Below, piece after piece: positions 20,801 through 29,767 of a DNA stretch of 47,417 bases; position 1 is the stretch's first letter, and each line of letters starts with the position of its first letter. A model generated the notes under the pieces. It was given only the letters and a program-made list of their open reading frames with translations. It made no database searches and was not told where the DNA came from. The DNA is taken from positions 1 to 47,417 of the forward strand of contig REBY01000188.1 in assembly GCA_007692485.1 (NCBI GenBank). The letters run 5' to 3'. This DNA comes from Pseudomonadaceae bacterium. Its GTDB lineage: Bacteria; Pseudomonadota; Gammaproteobacteria; Pseudomonadales; Pseudomonadaceae. The position numbers and the translations under genes were made by a program.

Positions 20801-21485
20801 GCTGGCGGCGGATGAAGGCTTTGCCGCGTTTGCCCAGCCAGAAAAGCGCAAACAGCTACTGATTCCCCGTTGCCAGCGGCGCAACTGGGGGGAGTGGAGT
20901 GACTGTCTGAACGACTGGTTTGGCCGTTTGCTGGAGCACCCCTGGTTCCTGAGCGGGAAAGCCTTCAGCCTGGCCGAGCTCAAACCGGGTCAGTATCAGA
21001 GCGAATTGCAGTTCATGTTCGCTGCGCATGGCGTTGCTGCGCAACAGATTGATGCCCTGGTGCGTCCTGAAACCCTGGATGCCGAGCACTACCCCCGCTT
21101 GGGCGCGGATCAACTCAATGGCCTGTTCAAAGGCTATATCGATCTGGTGTTTGAACATGATGGGCGTTATTGGGTGCTGGATTACAAATCCAACTGGCTG
21201 GGCCCGGATGCCAGCAGCTACAGCGCGGCTGAGATGTATCGCAGCGTGCAGGAACACCGTTACGACCTGCAGTATGTATTCTATGTGCTGGCCCTGCACC
21301 GCCAGTTGCGCGCCCGTTTGCCGGACTACGACTATGACCGGCATATGGGCGGCGCGGTGTACTGGTTCCTGCGTGGCGTCGATGCGGACAGCGGCGGCCT
21401 TTGGCAGGCCCGCCCGTCACGGGAATTGATTGAAGCGCTGGACCGGCTGTTTGCCGGTCAGACGCAGGAGGCCGCTCATGCCTGA
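17868..21485 (+). CDS. recB: Exodeoxyribonuclease V subunit beta, RecB
   Basis: 3'-5' helicase and the sole nuclease of RecBCD, also responsible for RecA loading. The 1205-residue protein has the superfamily I motifs EASAGTGKT (residues 21-29, Walker A), DEFQDTD (from Asp392), LLIGDPKQAIYSFRGADI and VVTIHKSKGLEYP. The C-terminal nuclease domain keeps its catalytic residues: Asp1092 in YIDLV, and Asp1105 and Lys1107 in LDYKSN, with the same 13-residue spacing as E. coli Asp1067/Asp1080/Lys1082. It therefore appears fully active. ATG 17868 overlaps the recC stop and is preceded by GGAGG. Confidence 0.97.
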   Translation: MTASATPLALRCPLRGSRLIEASAGTGKTFTISALYLRLVLAQGAENDFPRALLPPDILVVTFTEAATQELRDRIRARLVDAAKAFRQELPDPDPIIAALCQQTPPEQWPASARKLDIAAQWMDQAAVSTIHSWCQRMLREHAFDSGSLFEQTLETDQRELRAEVARDYWRQHCYPLTGAALAWVAHNWQTPDALLGSLRALLDDQLPAPQGSLEAVVTDTLAQRAQALAELKAPWMQWANELQQLLEQAVEQKQVDGRKLQRRFFAPWFDALRAWAADVDQDKLALTDSAWQRLSEEGLAEAWKTGSPPDHPAPRQLPELRQALADLISPQEAALNHAASWIAERFEQEQRRRAQMGFDDMLKRLDAALQSDNGDRLAAVIREQFPVALIDEFQDTDPMQYRIFNAVYRVAENDQDSALLLIGDPKQAIYSFRGADIHTYLSARRATAGRHENLDTNYRSSQSMVAAVNRVFELAETSNPQGAFHFKQGSENPLPFLPVLAQGRKDVWQRDGAPAPALSVWQLDSQEPLSGDVYREQMAERCASAMVDMLNAGQQGTAGFAHPDKPFASVKPADMAVLVRTGKEAQCIRRALAARGVRSVYLSDKDSVFASLEARDVLRWLRACADPGNDGLLRAALASPSLGLSWAELERLNEDERYWEQRVDQFHGLRRLWLRQGVLPMLQQLLHVFQLPARLLLQSDGERRLTNLLHLAELLQRAARELDGEQALIRHLAELLEDASGNSSDDQILRLESDAELVKVVTIHKSKGLEYPLVFLPFIAHSRPADGKRPLWLHEGDARQLHLRPDEDAVALADVERLGEDLRLLYVALTRARHACWLGIADLKSGNRKSSVLHRSALAWLLAGGQPLQQSAQLTEWLQAWQQPPALCVLPAPEANDDCYQPDTVTPAAISERQPSHPAFERWWVGSYSALVNGQESYSLDHDAKAVFMPPTASTGLTPHNFPRGPQPGVFLHGLLELAADEGFAAFAQPEKRKQLLIPRCQRRNWGEWSDCLNDWFGRLLEHPWFLSGKAFSLAELKPGQYQSELQFMFAAHGVAAQQIDALVRPETLDAEHYPRLGADQLNGLFKGYIDLVFEHDGRYWVLDYKSNWLGPDASSYSAAEMYRSVQEHRYDLQYVFYVLALHRQLRARLPDYDYDRHMGGAVYWFLRGVDADSGGLWQARPSRELIEALDRLFAGQTQEAAHA

Positions 21486-23523
21486 GCAATTTGATTTATT
21501 GGCGGACACGCCGGTAACCGCTGCCTGGCTGCAAGACAGCCAGCCGTTGCTGGCGCTGCTGGATGCCTGGCAAACACTGGGCTGGCTGCGCCCGCTGGAT
21601 CGTGCGCTGGCAGGCTTTCTCTATGAGCAAGCGCCGGATTGCCCGCCACTGGTTCTGTTGGCCGCTGCCCTGGTCAGCCATCAGCTTGGTCACGGCCATG
21701 TCTGCCTGGATTTGGGGACCACCCTGGAAGAGCCTGATTTTGCCCTATCGCTACCCCCGGAAGGGGCTGAGGCCGGAACGGCGCCGCTACCCTCTGCGGT
21801 GCTGCAGTCGATTGCGGTAACCGATTGGGTGGCTGCGTTGAGTGGCAGTGCAGTCGTGGATAGCGTCAACCCGCACAGCGGGGTGCGCCCCCTGGTGCTG
21901 GTTGGCCAGCGCCTGTATTTGCGCCGCTACTGGCAGTACGAGCGCAATGTGGTGGCTGATCTGAGCGCGCGGTTGCAGATGCCATTGCCGGTCGAAGCTG
22001 ATTTTGCCCAGCGCCTGCAGGGGTTGTTTAGTGGCAGCCAGCAAGCGCCGGACTGGCAACTGCTCGCCTGCGCCCTGGCGGCGCGCGGCCGCTTCAGTAT
22101 TATTACCGGGGGGCCTGGCACGGGCAAAACCACCACCGTGGTGCGTTTGCTGGCGTTGCTGCAAACCCCCGCCGTAGCCGCCGGGCAGCCGCTGCGCATT
22201 CGGCTCGCCGCGCCAACGGGCAAGGCCGCTGCACGGCTGACCGAATCCATTGGCCGCCAGGTGGGTGAGTTGCCGGTAGACGAGGCGGTCAAGCTTGAGA
22301 TTCCAAAGACAGTGGGCACCTTGCACCGCTTGCTGGGCAGCTTGCCGCACAGCCGGCATTTCCGCCATCACCGCGATAACCCGCTGGCGCTGGATGTGTT
22401 GGTGATCGACGAAGCCTCAATGATTGATCTGGAAATGATGGCCTGCGTACTAGCGGCCTTGCCGGCCAATGCGCGCCTGATCCTGCTCGGTGACAAGGAC
22501 CAGTTGGCCTCGGTGGAAGCCGGCGCGGTGTTGGGTGATTTGTGCCGTAATGCCGATCAGGGCTTTTACAGCCCGGCTACTCAGAGTTGGCTGCAAGAGG
22601 TCAGTGGGCAGTTGCTGGCGCCAGCGGGTTTGCAAGTGGGCGAGCAGAGTCAGCACGCGCTGGAGCAACAGACGGCCATGCTGCGTTACTCGCACCGCTT
22701 TGGTGGCGACAGCGGTATTGGCGAGCTGGCGCGGGCAGTGAATCGCTGCGCGGATCAGCAAGCCCGGCAGCTGCTGCAAGCAGATGCATTTGCTGATATT
22801 CAGCAGCGCAGCCTGAGTTCGCCCAAGGACCCGGCCTTTGCTGCCTGTGTGCTGGGTAATGACGCGCTGCCGGGCTATCAGCACTATCTGCAGCTGCTCG
22901 ATGCAGAGCGACCACCGGCGGCTACACCCGCCGAGAGTGACCTGTGGCAGGACTGGGCACGTGGGGTACTGACAAGCTTTGACCAGTTCCAGTTGCTGTG
23001 CGCGGTGCGCAAGGGTGACTGGGGGGTAGAGGCGATCAACCAGCGGGTAGCCACGTTGCTGCATGCCCGTGGGCTGACGCCGGCTGATCAGGGCTGGTAC
23101 GAAGGCCGGCCGGTGTTGGTTACCCGCAATGACTATGCGCTGGGTTTGATGAACGGCGATATCGGCATTGCCCTGCGCATTGCCGAACCCGCCTTGCAGC
23201 CTGGGATGCCGGAGCGGCAGGCCTTGCGCGTGGCCTTTGCGCGCAATGATGGCAGTGGCGGTATTCGCTTTGTATTGCCCAGCCGCTTGCCCGAGGTCGA
23301 TAGTGTCTTTGCCATGACGGTGCACAAGTCCCAGGGTTCGGAATTCGCCCATGCCGCCCTGGTGTTGCCGCCGGCGCGCAACCCGGTACTGACCAAGGAG
23401 CTGGTGTATACCGCGATCACTCGCGCCAGTCAGCGCTTTACCTTGCTGGAAAGTCGTGGGGGTGTATTTGAAGAAGCGGTGCGCACCCCGGTACGGCGCA
23501 TCAGCGGCCTGAAGCTGGACTGA
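21478..23523 (+). CDS. recD: Exodeoxyribonuclease V subunit alpha, RecD
   Basis: 5'-3' superfamily I helicase of RecBCD that sets nuclease activity and responds to Chi. The 681-residue product is longer than E. coli RecD (about 608). Walker A is GGPGTGKTTT with Lys217, Walker B is VLVIDEASMIDLEMM, then LLGDKDQLASVEAGAVLGD. The C-terminal motif is FAMTVHKSQGSEF, followed by LVYTAITRAS. ATG 21478 overlaps the recB stop by 8 bp and the open frame further upstream is inside recB. It ends 5 bp before the end of the convergent yigZ-like gene. Confidence 0.96.
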   Translation: MPEQFDLLADTPVTAAWLQDSQPLLALLDAWQTLGWLRPLDRALAGFLYEQAPDCPPLVLLAAALVSHQLGHGHVCLDLGTTLEEPDFALSLPPEGAEAGTAPLPSAVLQSIAVTDWVAALSGSAVVDSVNPHSGVRPLVLVGQRLYLRRYWQYERNVVADLSARLQMPLPVEADFAQRLQGLFSGSQQAPDWQLLACALAARGRFSIITGGPGTGKTTTVVRLLALLQTPAVAAGQPLRIRLAAPTGKAAARLTESIGRQVGELPVDEAVKLEIPKTVGTLHRLLGSLPHSRHFRHHRDNPLALDVLVIDEASMIDLEMMACVLAALPANARLILLGDKDQLASVEAGAVLGDLCRNADQGFYSPATQSWLQEVSGQLLAPAGLQVGEQSQHALEQQTAMLRYSHRFGGDSGIGELARAVNRCADQQARQLLQADAFADIQQRSLSSPKDPAFAACVLGNDALPGYQHYLQLLDAERPPAATPAESDLWQDWARGVLTSFDQFQLLCAVRKGDWGVEAINQRVATLLHARGLTPADQGWYEGRPVLVTRNDYALGLMNGDIGIALRIAEPALQPGMPERQALRVAFARNDGSGGIRFVLPSRLPEVDSVFAMTVHKSQGSEFAHAALVLPPARNPVLTKELVYTAITRASQRFTLLESRGGVFEEAVRTPVRRISGLKLD

Positions 23524-23528
23524 GCGGG

Positions 23529-24119
23529 TCAGCCCTCGGCGTCAGTCCAGACCAGCTCACCTCGGCAAACCTGTTGCAGCTGGTCGAGAAAATCCTCTGC
23601 GGCGGCGGCATCCAGGCGAACATCCAGTTGCACGCAGTGATTGTGATTGACCGCCAGCAGCTCACCCGCCATTTGATACAGCAGGCGCCGGGCGGTGCTT
23701 TCCTGGGCAAAGGGTAGTTGGCAAAGCAGGCTGCGCTGGCGTACCAGGAGTATACGTTCGGCGTGCAGCAGGGATTGGGCAATGGCATCGGTATAGGCAC
23801 GCACCAGCCCGCCGGCACCCAGCTTGGTACCGCCGAAATAGCGCACCACGGTCGCCAGTACGCCATCGAGTTGCTGGTGGCGCAGCACCTCCAGCATCGG
23901 CCGCCCGGCCGTACCCGATGGCTCGCCATCATCCACCGCCGCACTATGCCCGCCGGCCAGCAAGGCCCAGCACACATGGGCCGCATCCGGGTGCGCGGCG
24001 CGCAATTCAGCCACCCGTTGCTGGGCCGCAGCGCGGTCGCTGACCGGCTCTACACAGCCGATAAAACGGCTTTTGCGGATATCCAGGGTGTGGCTGACAG
24101 GTTGGGCCAGGCTGTACAT
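23529..24119 (-). CDS. yigZ: YigZ/IMPACT family protein
   Basis: 196-residue member of the UPF0029/IMPACT family. The N-terminal domain has KSRFIGCVEPVSD, HVCWALLAGG, DDGEPSGTAGRPMLEVL and VVRYFGGTKLGAGGLVRAY, all classical family signatures. The C-terminal DUF1949 ferredoxin-like region is shorter and more variable. Bacterial members have no settled biochemical role; links to translation control come from the eukaryotic IMPACT protein. The ATG (24119) overlaps the stop of the upstream C26 amidase gene by one base (TGATG), implying coupling. The longer open frame to 24215 lies inside that gene and is rejected as the start. Confidence 0.9.
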   Translation of the reverse strand: MYSLAQPVSHTLDIRKSRFIGCVEPVSDRAAAQQRVAELRAAHPDAAHVCWALLAGGHSAAVDDGEPSGTAGRPMLEVLRHQQLDGVLATVVRYFGGTKLGAGGLVRAYTDAIAQSLLHAERILLVRQRSLLCQLPFAQESTARRLLYQMAGELLAVNHNHCVQLDVRLDAAAAEDFLDQLQQVCRGELVWTDAEG

Positions 24120-24802
24120 CAGGACTTTGCCAGCATCCGGCCTTTGGCCACAGCAATCAGCCTGCCGAACAAGCGTCGATGGCGTGGGCTGAGAATAAGG
24201 AACTCTGGATGCCACTGCACGCCGATCAGAAAGGGACGGTTGGGGTCTTCAATGGCCTGAACGATGCCGTCGAGGTCGCGCCCGGTAATTACCAATCCTT
24301 TACCTACCTGGTCGATGGCCTGGTTGTGCAGGCTGTTGATGCGGCAATGGTCGGCGCGCATCAGCTGGCTCAACTGGCTGTTACTGTCTACGTGCAGGGT
24401 TTTCAGCGGCAGTATGGTCCAGCGGTTGGACGTCATCTTGCGGTGTGATTTCAGCTCCTGAAACAGGTTGCCGCCCAGCCGGGCATTGAGCAGTTGCGCG
24501 CCACGGCAAATACCCAGCAAGGGCAAGCGGTTATCCAGCGCATCATCAATCACTGCCGCTTCCAGCGCATCGCGCTCCGGGTCATATTTGGGGTGCACTT
24601 CAGGTTCAGCTGCGTAGAGTACCGGATCAATATCATGCCCGCCGGTCACTACCACAGCGTCATAACGCAGCTGCCGCCAGTCATCACTGGGGCGCACCTG
24701 CAAGGGTGTTGCACCGTACCAGCGTACGGCACAGGCAACCAGAAAGCGTGGACCAAAGGCGCCCTTTTGCGGGCCGGTGATGGCAACAACGGGTTTACTC
24801 AT
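24119..24802 (-). CDS. C26-family gamma-glutamyl hydrolase/amidase (PuuD-like class I glutamine amidotransferase fold)
   Basis: 227-residue predicted cytoplasmic Cys-His-Glu hydrolase. Family elements are VVTGGHDIDPVLY (residues 51-63), the nucleophile elbow GICRGAQLLN with Cys99, and GVQWHPE with His198 and Glu200. PuuD-type enzymes cleave gamma-glutamyl amides such as gamma-glutamyl-GABA. The protein lies between a GS-fold amidoligase (upstream, 4-bp ATGA overlap) and a YigZ protein (downstream, one-base overlap). It most likely hydrolyses the product of that ligase or supplies ammonia to it; both are inferences. ATG 24802 is chosen because it overlaps the previous stop. Confidence 0.87.
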   Translation of the reverse strand: MSKPVVAITGPQKGAFGPRFLVACAVRWYGATPLQVRPSDDWRQLRYDAVVVTGGHDIDPVLYAAEPEVHPKYDPERDALEAAVIDDALDNRLPLLGICRGAQLLNARLGGNLFQELKSHRKMTSNRWTILPLKTLHVDSNSQLSQLMRADHCRINSLHNQAIDQVGKGLVITGRDLDGIVQAIEDPNRPFLIGVQWHPEFLILSPRHRRLFGRLIAVAKGRMLAKS

Positions 24803-25794
24803 TTGATCTCGCACAGCCAGTCGCGGTTGACGCGATGTTCCCACTTGTCCAGCAAGCGGCCAAGGCCTTGTTCCCAGTACTCGCCATAGGCTTCACAGCA
24901 CGCTTGCAGGCGTGGGCGGTCATTAGCCAGGTGCTCCACTTGCAGCCAGTCTTTCCAGGAGACATGCAAACCCCAACCGGGTTGGTCGATCAGGCAGTCG
25001 GGCAGTCGATAATGAAAAGTTGGACGTTCCTTGATCAGCTCGTCAGCGGCCTTGGCCAGAACCCGTTTTTCATCGATATGCTTGAACAGGGGCAGCATAT
25101 CCAGTGCACGGTTGCGGGTCGGGTTATCGCGCAGGTAATCATCGATCAGGTCGTTGATCGGTGGCCAGTAATCGGCGCTGATCACCTTGCGCACATACTC
25201 CTTGGGGAAGGGATCGACATAGCTGGTCAGGCGCCGGGTAATATTGATATCGGCGCGGGTCTTGATCCAGTCATACAGGCAAAGAAATGCTTTAATGTAG
25301 GCGGTGATCGTGTCGGCTTCGCAGTCCGGCACTTCCGGGTTGAACTGCATACCAAAGGCGTTGGTAATACGGTCACCGGTCCCTTTGGCGCCGGCACGGC
25401 GCAGGTGATCAATCAGCTCATCCACTTCGCCGAGGCGGTCAAGCGGCAGCGGTGGGCTGACCAGTTCCATTGGTACCAGGCCTTCGGACACCCATTTGAG
25501 CGCGTCTTCGGCGGAATTCATCAGCTCATCGCCCAGGTCATGCTTTTTACGTTCTTCGCGGCCGAGTTTTTTCAGCAAACGAAAATCGAACTCCACCACC
25601 CAGTCACCGGCTGAGTCGCCGACCAGGGTACGTTCATACCGGCTGGTCTGTTCGACCGTGCAATCGAGAAAGTCAGCGGCCAGGCGGGCCAGTTGGTCCA
25701 GCGTCAGGCCGTTCATCTCCAGCTCGACGCCCACCCGGCGCTGCTTACCGTCAGCATTTGTCTGCCGTGGCGGCATGGGGAATTCAATGGGCAT
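24799..25794 (-). CDS. Amidoligase family protein (GS-fold COOH-NH2 ligase, Amidoligase_2-like)
   Basis: 331-residue protein of the putative amidoligase family, distant relatives of glutamine synthetase that are thought to form amide bonds using ATP. The conserved metal strand VGVELEMNGL carries Glu24 and Glu26. It is followed by VVEFDFRLL, MELVSPPL, NAFGMQFNPEVPD (the H/N-P element) and an ITRRLTSYVDPFP stretch. No transmembrane or signal segment is seen. The open frame begins at TTG 25800, but ATG 25794 is preferred because AAGGA lies 6 nt before it. The pairing with a C26 hydrolase gene is known in comparative genomics of these ligases. The substrate has not been established and cannot be read from the sequence. 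Confidence 0.83.
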   Translation of the reverse strand: MPIEFPMPPRQTNADGKQRRVGVELEMNGLTLDQLARLAADFLDCTVEQTSRYERTLVGDSAGDWVVEFDFRLLKKLGREERKKHDLGDELMNSAEDALKWVSEGLVPMELVSPPLPLDRLGEVDELIDHLRRAGAKGTGDRITNAFGMQFNPEVPDCEADTITAYIKAFLCLYDWIKTRADINITRRLTSYVDPFPKEYVRKVISADYWPPINDLIDDYLRDNPTRNRALDMLPLFKHIDEKRVLAKAADELIKERPTFHYRLPDCLIDQPGWGLHVSWKDWLQVEHLANDRPRLQACCEAYGEYWEQGLGRLLDKWEHRVNRDWLCEIK

Positions 25795-25831
25795 GGGCAA
25801 TCCTTAAAAAACAATGCAATGATCCTAACAT

Positions 25832-25850
25832 ACCGGGGTGTCAGCCCGGT
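25832..25850. terminator. Hairpin between ggt and the amidoligase gene
   Basis: ACCGGG (25832-25837) and CCCGGT (25845-25850) form a perfect 6-bp stem with a 7-nt loop, directly after the ggt stop on the minus strand. No T-tract follows in that direction, so it may only attenuate transcription into the amidoligase gene or protect the mRNA end. Confidence 0.35.
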
Positions 25851-25851
25851 G

Positions 25852-27573
25852 TCAGTCGCCGAGCACGATACCATCCAGCCGCGGGTCGGCGGCGCCGCGC
25901 CAGCCCGTGTCGATGCGCTGGATGGCATGTACTCCGCTGGTCATGGGTTCTAGGCGCACCCGGTGGCCCAGTGCTTGTAAGGCCTCGGCATGATCCGCCA
26001 GCCAGGTGTCGGCTTCCAGTTCAATGCCCCGCCGTCGTTCCACCATATTCGGTAACGCCAGGGCCTCGGCCAGCTCCATCTCCCAGTCGAGGGTGGCGAT
26101 CAGGCTTTTCACTACATAGCCGATAATCCGGCTGCCGCCGCGTGAGCCAATTACCATGATGGGCTCGCCGTCGGCGTCATAAACGACAAAAGGTGACATG
26201 GAGCTGCGCGGCCGTTTGCCGCCAGCTACCGCATTGGGGTGCTCGCGGTCACTCAGGCGCGGATTGAAGTTGAAGTCAGTCAGTTGGCTATTGATAACAA
26301 AACCCTGACTGAGCATACGGCTGCCGAAAGGGATTTCATTGGAGCCGGTAAAGGCCACCAGATTGCCTGCACTGTCGACCACGCTCAGGTGTGAGGTGCC
26401 GTGTTCCGGTTCGGGTGCCGGTAGTTCGGCCTCAGGTAGCTCGGCGGCGATGCCGGCAACGCCGGGCACGACATCATCTTTTGCCTGCTGAGGGTCTATC
26501 AGGTTGGCACGCTGGGCCAGATAGTCGCGGTCCAGCAGATCCGTCAGGGGCACCTCAACAAAATCCGGGTCCCCCACGTAATACTCGCGGTCGGCAAAGG
26601 CCAGTCGGCTGGCTTCGGCAATCAGGTGCCAGGCCTGGGTGTCATCAGCACTCAGGTCGGGCAGCGGGAAGTGTTCAAGGATGCCCAGTATCTGCAATAC
26701 GGTAATGCCGCCTGACGAGGGCGGGGGCGGGCCGCACAGGGTCCATTGTCGGTAGGCACCACATACGGGCGGGCGTTCGATGGCCGCATAATCATGTAAG
26801 TCGCTGAGCTGCATGTCGCCGCGGCCCCAGCGCGCGTCATGGACGCGCTGTAGAAACTGCTCGCCGATGGCTCCGTGGTAAAAACTGTCGGTCCCTTCAT
26901 CCGCCAGCTGGCGTAGGGTCACGGCCAGCTCCGGGTTATGCAGCCTGGGCGCTTCTTCAGCGGCCTGGCGGCGAAAGTACTGGCGCGTATCGGCGAACAG
27001 GCGTAATGACCAGTCCTGATTGATTTGCTGTTGCAGGCGCGGTGGCATGGCAATGCCCTGCTCAGCCAGTTCGATGGCTGGGGCAAACAGGCTGGCCCAG
27101 GGGAGTTGGCCATGTTCGGCATGGGCTTTCGCCATCAGGGCCAGCAGGCCAGGCACGCCGATCGAGTCGCTGCCGGCCATGGCAACGATGAAGGGCTTGT
27201 TCATTCCCGGCCAGCGGAAGCGGTCAGCGCCGGCGGCCTGGGGGGCCGTCTCGCGGCCATCATAAAAGCGTGTTTGGCCGCTTTGCGCCTCATGTAGCAA
27301 CATAAAGCCACCGCCACCAATGCCGGTTTCTGGTGCCTCGACCAGGCCCAATACCAGCTTGGCGGCAATGGCCGCGTCGACGGCACTGCCGCCCTGACGC
27401 AAGATGTCACGTCCGGCTGCCGCTGCCAGCGGGTGAGGGGCGCTGATCATATGTTGCGGCGCTTCGCGCTCGGCACGGGTTTGCACCGCTGGCGTATCGG
27501 TCGCCGGGTCACTGCCGGTACAGGCAGCGAGCAAAGCCAGTAGCGGGAATCCCAGGAGGCAGTTACGTATCAT
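25852..27573 (-). CDS. ggt: Gamma-glutamyltransferase, predicted lipoprotein
   Basis: Self-processing N-terminal-nucleophile enzyme that cleaves or transfers gamma-glutamyl groups, for example from glutathione, outside the cytoplasm. The product is about 573 residues. The signal ends in a lipobox (LLAAC, cysteine at residue 18), so a lipid anchor is predicted. Conserved parts include GGSAVDAAIAAKLVLGLVE, TGIGGGGFMLL, DGRETAP, PPPSSGGIT, and the autocleavage/nucleophile threonine in EHGTSHLSVVD (Thr393). Three ATG codons lie in tandem (27579, 27576, 27573). AAGG abuts the first and is 6 nt from the third, so 27573 is used. Only 57 bp separate it from the amidoligase gene on the same strand, so it may be the first gene of a four-gene operon. 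Confidence 0.92.
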   Translation of the reverse strand: MIRNCLLGFPLLALLAACTGSDPATDTPAVQTRAEREAPQHMISAPHPLAAAAGRDILRQGGSAVDAAIAAKLVLGLVEAPETGIGGGGFMLLHEAQSGQTRFYDGRETAPQAAGADRFRWPGMNKPFIVAMAGSDSIGVPGLLALMAKAHAEHGQLPWASLFAPAIELAEQGIAMPPRLQQQINQDWSLRLFADTRQYFRRQAAEEAPRLHNPELAVTLRQLADEGTDSFYHGAIGEQFLQRVHDARWGRGDMQLSDLHDYAAIERPPVCGAYRQWTLCGPPPPSSGGITVLQILGILEHFPLPDLSADDTQAWHLIAEASRLAFADREYYVGDPDFVEVPLTDLLDRDYLAQRANLIDPQQAKDDVVPGVAGIAAELPEAELPAPEPEHGTSHLSVVDSAGNLVAFTGSNEIPFGSRMLSQGFVINSQLTDFNFNPRLSDREHPNAVAGGKRPRSSMSPFVVYDADGEPIMVIGSRGGSRIIGYVVKSLIATLDWEMELAEALALPNMVERRRGIELEADTWLADHAEALQALGHRVRLEPMTSGVHAIQRIDTGWRGAADPRLDGIVLGD

Positions 27574-27686
27574 CATCATCCTTGTAGGTTATTCGTCGTC
27601 AAAATCAAGGCACAGGATAGTTGTCAGTCGTTTTACGTTAGAATAGTCTGCTCAACTTCTTCTATTTCACCGTGTGTAGGAACCGC

Positions 27687-27875
27687 ATGTCCAAACTCGC
27701 AGATTTTCGTGCCATTGAACGCCAACTGGCCGATCAATTGGCTCAGTTGGAAACCCTGAAGCAGGATGATCAGCTGAATGCCGAACTGGCGTTCAACGAC
27801 GAACTCAAGGCGCTGATCAAGTCCTACGGCCTGAGCAAGCGTGATGTTGTGGCTATCCTGCAATCAGCCAGTTAA
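27687..27875 (+). CDS. MvaU/MvaT-like N-terminal oligomerisation domain only (62 aa, no DNA-binding domain)
   Basis: The 62-residue product starts MSKLADFRAIERQL and continues through DQLAQLETLKQDD, AELAFNDELKALIKSYG and RDVVAILQSAS. From my knowledge of Pseudomonas MvaU and MvaT, this follows their first 58 or so residues (the coiled-coil dimerisation region) closely. The AT-hook-like C-terminal half, which contains YKNPHTGE and GGNHK-type motifs in those proteins, is missing. I checked the three frames after the TAA and found no remnant of it. AGGA precedes ATG 27687. Such a protein could poison MvaT/MvaU filaments, as truncated H-NST does for H-NS in enterobacteria; this is inference. It could also be a decayed mvaU copy. 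It is divergent from ggt. Confidence 0.75.
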   Translation: MSKLADFRAIERQLADQLAQLETLKQDDQLNAELAFNDELKALIKSYGLSKRDVVAILQSAS

Positions 27876-28105: not shown

Positions 28106-29767
28106 ATGGGTAACGATCCCATCAAACCGGGAACCGAGGATCCGCATCAGGATGCCGGCCCGGCGATTCCGGCACCGTCCGGTGAGACCAACCTGATCGA
28201 CACGGACTATGTGATCGGGCAAGACAATATCAAGGGACAGTTTTCCATCGCGCTGGATATTCACGGCAAGGTATTCAGTATTTCCGCAATCACCATTCTG
28301 CTGTTTGTCATCTTGACGTTGGCACTGCAGAACGAGGTTGAGCCCATTTTTGCCGCAGTGCGAAATTGGCTGACTGGCAACCTGGCCTGGTTTTTCATCA
28401 GCGCGGCCAATATCTTCGTGGTGCTTTGTCTGGTGTTGATTGTGACGCCTCTGGGTAAGGTGCGCTTAGGTGGTAAGGACGCCGTAGCAGACCATTCCTA
28501 CCTGGGCTGGTTTTCCATGCTGTTTGCCGCCGGTATGGGCATCGGTCTGATGTTTTATGGGGTAGCTGAGCCAATGGGGCATTTCTCTGCCGCCATGGGT
28601 GGTATCAGCGGTGAAGCCGGTGCCCGCACGGACTGGTCACCTCTGGCAGGTGCTGAGGGTGATGCCGGTGCCGCTGCGCGCCTGGCAATGGCCTCGACCA
28701 TTTTTCATTGGGGTCTGCACCCTTGGGCGATCTACGCCATTGTGGCGCTGGCGCTGGCGTTGTTCTCTTTCAACAAAGGCCTGCCGCTGAGCATCCGCTC
28801 GATCTTTTATCCGCTGCTGGGTGAGCGTGTGTGGGGCTGGCCGGGGCATGTTATTGATATTCTGGCGGTGTTTGCCACTCTGTTCGGTCTGGCAACCTCG
28901 CTGGGTCTGGGCGCACAGCAGGCGGCCGGGGGTATCAATTACCTGTTCGAAATCGGTGGTGGTAACGCCAGTATGGTGTTGCTGATTATCGGGATTACCA
29001 TTATCGCCATGCTGTCGGTACTGGCGGGCCTGGAAAAGGGTGTGAAACGTCTGTCCCAGGTCAACATGACCCTGGCAGTGCTGTTGCTGGGCTTTGTGAT
29101 TGTGGTTGGCCCGACAGTGGCAATTCTGACCGGCTTTTTCAGCAATCTGGGCGCATATTTGCAGTACTTACCCGCCTTGTCGAATCCGGTCGGCCGTGAA
29201 GATGCCAACTTCAGCCAGGGCTGGACTGCCTTCTATTGGGCCTGGTGGATTAGCTGGTCGCCCTTCGTCGGTATGTTTATCGCGCGTGTGAGCCGTGGCC
29301 GTACCGTGCGTGAGTTCCTGATTGCTGTTCTTCTGGTGCCAACAGTGGTCTCGGTACTGTGGATGTCTACCTTTGGTGGTACCGCGATTACCCAGTTCCT
29401 CGGCGGCTTTACCGGGGTGCAGGAAGCGGCGCTGGAAATCCAGCTGTTTGCCATGTTGGCGGAATTGCCGCTGGCAGCGATAACCTCGTTCATCGGCATT
29501 ATTCTGGTGATCATCTTCTTTATCACCTCATCCGATTCGGGGTCGCTGGTGATTGATACCATTACTGCCGGTGGCAAGGTCAATGCGCCTGTGCCGCAAC
29601 GGGTGTTCTGGGTGATTATCGAAGGGGTGATTGCGATTGCCCTGCTGCTGGGCGGTGGCTTGATTGCCTTGCAGGCGATGGCGGTATCGACCGGCTTGCC
29701 CTTCACCATAGTGCTTCTGGTGGGCTGTATCTCGATCGTCAAGGGTTTGATGAGCGAGCCACGCTAG
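28106..29767 (+). CDS. BCCT family transporter (choline/glycine betaine/carnitine type)
   Basis: Inner-membrane symporter of 553 residues for quaternary-ammonium osmolytes. A hydrophilic N-terminal tail of about 50 residues precedes roughly 12 membrane helices. Diagnostic stretches are the glycine-rich GMGIGLMFYGVAEP, WGLHPWAIYAIV and the BCCT signature WAWWISWSPFVGMFIARVSRGRT near two thirds of the length. The C-terminal tail is very short (ends VKGLMSEPR), so the long osmosensing tail of BetP-like members is absent. The exact substrate is not determinable. GGGAG precedes the start and a palindrome lies just upstream. Confidence 0.9.
   Translation: MGNDPIKPGTEDPHQDAGPAIPAPSGETNLIDTDYVIGQDNIKGQFSIALDIHGKVFSISAITILLFVILTLALQNEVEPIFAAVRNWLTGNLAWFFISAANIFVVLCLVLIVTPLGKVRLGGKDAVADHSYLGWFSMLFAAGMGIGLMFYGVAEPMGHFSAAMGGISGEAGARTDWSPLAGAEGDAGAAARLAMASTIFHWGLHPWAIYAIVALALALFSFNKGLPLSIRSIFYPLLGERVWGWPGHVIDILAVFATLFGLATSLGLGAQQAAGGINYLFEIGGGNASMVLLIIGITIIAMLSVLAGLEKGVKRLSQVNMTLAVLLLGFVIVVGPTVAILTGFFSNLGAYLQYLPALSNPVGREDANFSQGWTAFYWAWWISWSPFVGMFIARVSRGRTVREFLIAVLLVPTVVSVLWMSTFGGTAITQFLGGFTGVQEAALEIQLFAMLAELPLAAITSFIGIILVIIFFITSSDSGSLVIDTITAGGKVNAPVPQRVFWVIIEGVIAIALLLGGGLIALQAMAVSTGLPFTIVLLVGCISIVKGLMSEPR

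Follow-up and report, generated by a model that had tools for sequence, protein, structure and literature searches.

The 47,417-nucleotide stretch of Pseudomonadaceae DNA analyzed here (assembly GCA_007692485.1, contig REBY01000188.1; hereafter the window) carries four minus-strand open reading frames (ORFs) arranged head to tail from 23529 to 27579, which encode a lipoprotein gamma-glutamyltransferase (GGT), an amidoligase of the Amidoligase_2 family (PF12224), a Peptidase_C26 hydrolase and a YigZ-type protein. The core of this system is the amidoligase-C26 pair, beside which different lineages place one or another unrelated enzyme predicted to cut gamma-glutamyl bonds outside the cytosol. 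On balance we favor a gamma-glutamyl amide cycle in which a cytosolic ligase of the glutamine synthetase (GS) type would form the amide, the C26 enzyme would reverse the reaction, and an exported GGT or cyclotransferase would act on the conjugate outside. The ligase-C26 pair, a predicted kind of system, is the mostly known part of this reading; the apparently interchangeable exported partners and a gamma-aminobutyrate (GABA)/polyamine locus in Nitrincola look new. Among the titles listed by a search of mainly open-access literature, none deals with a GGT or a GGACT-type cyclotransferase as companion of such a pair on a bacterial chromosome.

A conserved ligase-hydrolase pair

The layout described in an earlier note on this DNA, with four ORFs on one strand, a 57-bp gap after ggt, and ATGA and TGATG overlaps between the remaining genes, was found in every particular (Table 1). 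The host genome, a draft of 2.8 Mb with 94% completeness, has its closest named relatives in Halopseudomonas and Pseudomonas. PF12224 occurs in 20 of 369 genomes sampled from the class, 24 of 398 from the phylum and 32 of 298 from the family, and all 32 of the latter belong to the window's own genus (37 genomes in the sample). The regions compared comprised 20 class loci, 20 phylum loci (from 24 genomes, leaving out G000, G365 and G072, already covered, and G870, in fragments) and 31 fetched genus loci, or 32 with the window. Another 40 loci, referred to as named, are the result of one scan of genome contigs and overlap the genus set, several contigs being taken as common to both. Neighbor counts come from a profile search, which replaced clustering because poor gene calls in the GC-rich loci L023, L028 and L033 had kept several C26 and ligase genes out of the clusters.

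Of the named loci, 34 of 40 have a C26 gene within 3.5 kb on the strand of the ligase, as do 17 of 20 class and 17 of 20 phylum loci, all 31 fetched genus loci and the window; three loci in which the profile found no ligase (L115, L134 and L154) are scored as misses. In 91 of the 99 C26-bearing loci the distance between ligase stop and C26 start, judged from profile ends, is roughly -25 to +22 nt. Eleven plasmid records match the ligase, and among the seven opened a C26-type gene follows it in three, pDSHI02 of Dinoroseobacter shibae DFL 12, SC52 and Qingshengfaniella, the SC52 partner carrying the name type 1 glutamine amidotransferase. Conservation of the pair is thus not limited to one clade and reaches far beyond Pseudomonadales, the order in which the earlier note had proposed to look for it. 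Apart from the pair itself few operon neighbors recur. A membrane protein with a VTT domain lies directly 3′ of C26 in five scattered loci (L032:7270-7710, L116:10197-10622, L123:7425-7946, L126:4131-4655 and L127:9987-10430). Synthesis of glutathione amide, a trait of Chromatiaceae, was considered since Thiocapsa has the pair, and was dropped because the spread of the pair is far wider.

The amidoligase scores 214 bits with the Amidoligase_2 model over residues 17-284 (cut-off 22) and has no match in NCBIfam. An alignment of 28 ligases has invariant columns that include E24, E26, R52, G59, D60, E68, N152 and R187. An AF2 model (predicted local distance difference test 85.5, predicted TM-score 0.85) returned glutamine synthetases, enzymes of the glutamate-cysteine ligase type or YbdK as each of its first 26 Foldseek matches in the PDB, with query TM-scores of 0.22-0.38 and E above 0.001. 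The GS-fold label that the earlier note gave this protein is therefore weakly supported: the matches agree in kind, and none reaches E<=0.001. No solved structure related to the amidoligase by sequence was found. Among 90 ligases placed in a tree, those of the genus form one clade (support 100/96). Ligases from metagenome-assembled genomes (MAGs) labeled Halothece, a cyanobacterium, and Deltaproteobacteria (L017, L031) branch among gammaproteobacterial ligases, which may reflect mis-binned contigs or transfer. At L038:9971-10965 and L040:4554-5094 the ligase lies in two overlapping frames, as a broken gene or through sequencing error.

The C26 protein scores 157 bits with Peptidase_C26 (cut-off 20.5). 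Its Cys99, His198 and Glu200 align with the same motifs in PuuD (6vtv), so that the Cys-His-Glu triad is kept, and PuuD is both its best NCBIfam match and its second-best solved relative. It also matches the class I glutamine amidotransferase (GATase) model PF00117, at 55 bits.

Gamma-glutamyl enzymes of predicted outside location beside the pair

The GGT of the window scores 483 bits with G_glu_transpept (PF01019; cut-off 27) and passes the TIGR00066 gamma-glutamyltransferase cut-off (372.1 bits vs 357.85). Three in-phase ATG codons at 27579, 27576 and 27573 can start the gene, the last being the one taken in the earlier note. Of 19 distinct N-terminal stretches of GGTs that were read, 18 have a lipobox; the exception, L004, is cut off by the end of its contig and begins within the gene. 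The E. coli GGT chain 2e0w, which we take to be the T391A mutant, has Ala in alignment with Thr394. Arg108, Asp434, the SSMSP and GG motifs and most substrate-binding positions are retained, and Glu414 occupies the position of an E. coli Asn, as in 4y23; we presume that these residues have their customary roles. The host genome has another GGT, 39% identical, on contig C168.

The earlier note had joined ggt to the pair as one functional cluster, and this holds in part, since ggt turns up repeatedly, though unevenly, beside the pair. It lies directly upstream of the ligase in 18 of 32 genus loci and beside it in 12 of 40 named loci. It is absent from the other 14 genus loci (L155, L182-L185 and a nine-row tree group with L010-L016), in which the ligase-C26 pair stays. 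Gap lengths before the ligase were taken from profile ends and run about 28 nt short (29 in L001-type loci vs the true 57 in the window). Outside the genus a close ortholog is adjacent only in the Azoarcus locus L039, among the loci read, where it stands upstream of the ligase, so that adjacency of ggt is nearly limited to one clade. All three Azoarcus genomes searched have close GGT orthologs (53-57% identity) as well as the ligase, the two genes being apart in the other two genomes. Near the Azoarcus ggt-ligase-C26 operon lie ORFs resembling an Amidase/allophanate hydrolase (L039:5192-7045) and a nitrilase (L039:839-2527), named by eye from their starts. A different GGT (45%) is found 3′ of C26 in L023 with one ORF between, and among the matches listed for the class sample no other GGT exceeds 47%.

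The patchiness of ggt is what would be expected if it were an accidental neighbor, a plain scavenger of glutathione or gamma-glutamyl peptides next to a ligase-C26 pair that is a unit on its own. We consider this possible, at rather long odds. Five of five tested genus genomes without an adjacent copy lack the paralog altogether, and the Azoarcus genomes keep the close ortholog together with the ligase. In the class sample a GGT at E<=1e-100 occurs in 19 of 369 genomes, with enrichment among those that have PF12224 (5 of 20 vs 14 of 349; p 0.002, or 0.0098 without the host genome), a comparison that is uncorrected for kinship and scores at most three candidates per genome.

A second kind of partner, absent from the earlier note, points in the same direction as GGT. 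An ORF of 141-156 aa stands beside the ligase in seven of the 40 named loci, upstream in six and downstream in one (L031), and the three of the seven that were scanned match the GGACT/AIG2 cyclotransferase family PF06094 at 44.5, 46.9 and 46.3 bits (cut-off 22.8). A structural model (predicted local distance difference test 83, predicted TM-score 0.66) matches AIG2-like, GGCT and GGACT structures by Foldseek. Glu127 within an LDxYE motif, which we take to be the catalytic Glu of GGACT, is invariant in all seven. Each of the seven also has a hydrophobic N-terminal stretch preceded by net positive charge, and therefore the enzyme domain should face out. GGT and GGACT, both of which cut gamma-glutamyl bonds, are in this way both predicted to face outside. 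The GGACT-bearing lineages are Nitrincola, Thiomicrospira, Marinimicrobium, an ectothiorhodospiraceal MAG and a Natronospirales MAG. Counting C26, three unrelated classes of enzyme that cut gamma-glutamyl bonds adjoin one ligase.

The two exported enzymes occur together at the ligase in none of the 40 named loci. Among 12 genomes searched for both, six have a close lipoprotein GGT, one has a strong GGACT and none has both; the L023 genome gave a weak GGACT match (2e-10), and in the L020 and L030 genomes GGACT is located away from the ligase. In the class sample the GGACT profile is found in two of 369 genomes, and each of the two belongs to the 20 that carry PF12224 (p 0.0028, with at most ten candidates scored per genome). 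One of these, G365, matches over nearly the whole length with the anchor included and lies 1.3 Mb from the ligase; taken alone its chance is 20/369. The GGACT can also stand without C26, since a C26 homolog at E<=1e-20 is absent from the available sequence of the L029, L031 (a MAG) and L034 genomes, which have GGACT. The L038 genome has one C26 homolog, apart from the ligase, and those of the Marinobacter loci L030 and L040 have only homologs of 37-39% identity.

A candidate gamma-glutamyl amine cycle and competing explanations

The genetic context in Nitrincola provides a hint, read from gene content, that the substrate is an amine. In L034 a PuuR-like regulator heads GGACT and amidoligase genes that face a block encoding a polyamine-type ABC transporter, gabD and gabT. 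The gabT and gabD products and a PotA-type ATPase pass their NCBIfam cut-offs and the permeases do not; the regulator scores 153 bits, under its cut-off of 211, and for the solute-binding protein NCBIfam gave no match within the limit applied. Clustering and similar starts indicate a matching arrangement at L038, from another Nitrincola species, where one ORF is recognized as gabT-like from its start.

In the cycle that we favor the amidoligase would use ATP to link an amine, most likely one of the GABA/polyamine type, to the gamma-carboxyl group of glutamate or of a peptide ending in Glu, and the co-translated C26 enzyme would hydrolyze this amide product in the cytosol. Conjugate that passes beyond the inner membrane would be split by the lipid-anchored GGT in Halopseudomonas and Azoarcus, or by the membrane-anchored GGACT-type cyclotransferase elsewhere, with recovery of the amine plus glutamate or pyroglutamate. 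The earlier note had likewise placed ligase and C26 inside and GGT outside, and this logic gains weight because an unrelated membrane-anchored enzyme of the GGACT type adjoins the ligase in other lineages. Gene order, family membership, catalytic residues, conservation and co-occurrence are seen in the sequences, and from them we infer the reactions, the substrate, the export step and where the exported enzymes are located. The swap of partners, together with the PuuR-like, gabTD and polyamine-transporter locus, would leave a gamma-glutamyl amine as the likely product. A more ambitious version, in which a membrane-spanning cycle is general, GGT and GGACT are interchangeable, and the tag is placed on GABA or a polyamine that cells import in saline or alkaline surroundings, is speculative and we regard it as doubtful. 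If the cycle is correct, a function would be gained for the widespread Amidoligase_2 family, with bearing on the related phage cassettes.

Several observations weigh against such a cycle. In addition to the 14 genus loci without ggt and the weak fold matches of the ligase model, the C26 protein scores 83.7 bits with the PuuD equivalog model NF008471, far under its cut-off of 266, and four of the seven plasmids opened (Microvirga, Azospirillum, Indioceanicola and Rhodovastum) have the ligase without C26. The GGACT match in G140, the second of the two class genomes, covers the enzyme domain only (57-147) and not the anchor, and three weaker GGACT matches came from 12 PF12224 genomes in which all candidates were scored, the other genomes not being so searched. 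The GABA/polyamine context comes from a single genus, where it is seen at two loci. One of these, L038, has its ligase divided between two frames and lacks an intact gabD among the called ORFs, and L020, a third locus from Nitrincola, carries C26 together with a different upstream gene. No enzyme assay or demonstrated substrate for Amidoligase_2 was met in the open literature searched.

The cassette might instead modify the cell envelope, akin to the envelope-modification cassettes of phages, which we judge unlikely. The predicted outward orientation of GGT and GGACT would suit such a role, the ligase model resembles viral proteins (nine BFVD matches at E<=0.001, five of them named amidoligase), and amidoligases, a cyclotransferase and a glutamine amidotransferase make up the PSA-HP1 cassette, reportedly common to phiEco32 and others (PMC5498523). 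However, a tblastn search of the amidoligase against 50,697 phage records found no match at E<=0.01, a result on which direct phage origin of the ligase was rejected, and the partner in LUZ24-like phage is a class II GATase and not C26 (PMC3890496). Pfam scans of ten operon neighbors, from about 72 listed without a name, found none of the ATP-grasp or Mur type, no further neighbor family recurs widely by clustering, and none of the eight window ORFs scanned with Pfam is an ATP-grasp enzyme or a class II GATase. Instead of hydrolyzing the ligase product, C26 might be a glutaminase passing ammonia to the ligase to yield a primary amide, as MurT/GatD reportedly do (PMC3267633). The PF00117 match and the tight coupling of the two genes agree with this reading, but we judge it quite improbable. 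PuuD is the second-best solved relative of C26 and, at a score below the cut-off, its best NCBIfam match, and in three genomes (L029, L031 and L034) the ligase is accompanied by a cyclotransferase, an enzyme unable to feed ammonia, and no C26 homolog is present at E<=1e-20.

Flanking genes and relation to known systems

Table 1. Positions of the cluster genes and of sites within and between them, in window coordinates.
Feature	Coordinates	Strand	Basis or remark
yigZ/IMPACT family gene, neighbor only	23529..24119	-	UPF0029
TGATG, 1-base overlap (24119) of C26 stop and yigZ start	24117..24121	-	sequence
Peptidase_C26, PuuD-like predicted gamma-glutamyl amide hydrolase	24119..24802	-	Pfam, NCBIfam, triad Cys99/His198/Glu200
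ATGA overlap of amidoligase stop and C26 start	24799..24802	-	sequence
amidoligase (PF12224), predicted to be a GS-like COOH-NH2 ligase that uses ATP	24799..25794	-	Pfam, alignment, model
gap between ggt and amidoligase, 57 bp	25795..25851	-	no terminator called inside
ggt, lipoprotein gamma-glutamyltransferase, second paralog	25852..27579	-	PF01019, TIGR00066, lipobox
predicted catalytic threonine codon, Thr394	26395..26397	-	aligns with E. coli GGT nucleophile position
lipobox Cys19 codon	27520..27522	-	lipobox LAAC

The cluster ends 5 bp short of the stop of the convergent recD (21430-23523, plus strand). A promoter scan performed at chance level (2 found vs 2.0 expected) and is uninformative on separate promoters, and the terminator scan of the cluster was no better than chance. 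The yigZ product scores 116 bits with UPF0029 (cut-off 27) and 146 with TIGR00257, below the cut-off of 168, and is therefore a divergent member of its family. Its inclusion in the system, as the earlier note proposed, was rejected: yigZ, a local neighbor with conservation confined to one clade, lies within 3 kb in only five of 32 genus loci, once 2.9 kb off, and the window, L001, L002 and L157, all with yigZ, are a single clade of the ligase tree (100/100), the placement of L004 being unsettled.

On the other side of the cluster a plus-strand ORF (27687-27875) encodes a 62-aa protein that has the N-terminal oligomerization domain of MvaT/MvaU (5b52, E 2e-12) and lacks the DNA-binding half, matching positions 1-60 of 120 of the NCBIfam model at 67 bits (cut-off 75). 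Of the 31 fetched genus loci 30 have this short ORF next to the ligase locus, the exception lying on a short contig, and all six genus genomes searched have such a copy (frame 66-97 aa) plus a longer one; matches in other Pseudomonadaceae, found in five of six genomes searched, are all in frames of at least 123 aa. The short protein is possibly an anti-silencer. Beyond it, and divergent from the cluster, is a BCCT betaine/choline-type transporter gene (28106-29767, plus strand). A BCCT gene lies within 9 kb at 26 of the 31 fetched genus loci; one also follows C26 directly at the Porticoccus loci L018 and L021, and one precedes GGACT at L029 of Thiomicrospira. Its membership in the system is no more than possible, since in the genus the gene points away from the cluster and BCCT genes are probably widespread among marine bacteria.

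The GGT resembles the E. coli and B. licheniformis enzymes in its full-length match, in the Thr at the nucleophile position and in most substrate-binding positions, and differs from the E. coli enzyme in being a lipoprotein paralog beside a ligase, with Glu414 for Asn. Amidoligase_2 genes are said by Iyer et al. 2009 to pair with a thiol peptidase in proteobacteria and with an Aig2 cyclotransferase in fungi, and the Pfam description of PF12224 gives the same pairing. The loci described here share with those neighborhoods the ligase family, a C26-type partner and a cyclotransferase, the last named there for fungi; they differ in the lipid-anchored GGT, the membrane-anchored bacterial GGACT and the Nitrincola GABA/polyamine locus. 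In the E. coli Puu pathway the GS-like ligase PuuA is paired with the C26 hydrolase PuuD and the regulator PuuR. The predicted logic of GS-type gamma-glutamylation undone by a C26 hydrolase is the same, and a PuuR-like gene with gabT-gabD recurs in Nitrincola L034, whereas the ligase here is an Amidoligase_2 protein and the C26 enzyme is far under the PuuD cut-off. None of PuuA, PuuB and PuuC was found by Pfam among the eight window ORFs scanned. In the phiEco32 record YtfP, an ATP-grasp protein and a glutamine amidotransferase are annotated, and the name amidoligase does not appear. Phage cassettes such as those of PSA-HP1, LUZ24-like phages, ZRK32 and Clostridium prophages combine an amidoligase with a cyclotransferase and/or a glutamine amidotransferase (PMC5498523, PMC3890496, PMC10945688, PMC11318856). 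The bacterial loci share with them the association of an amidoligase with a gamma-glutamyl cyclotransferase and/or a protein of the glutamine amidotransferase kind, but where LUZ24-like phage has a class II GATase and ATP-grasp enzyme, the bacteria have C26 together with a GGT or GGACT predicted to be exported.

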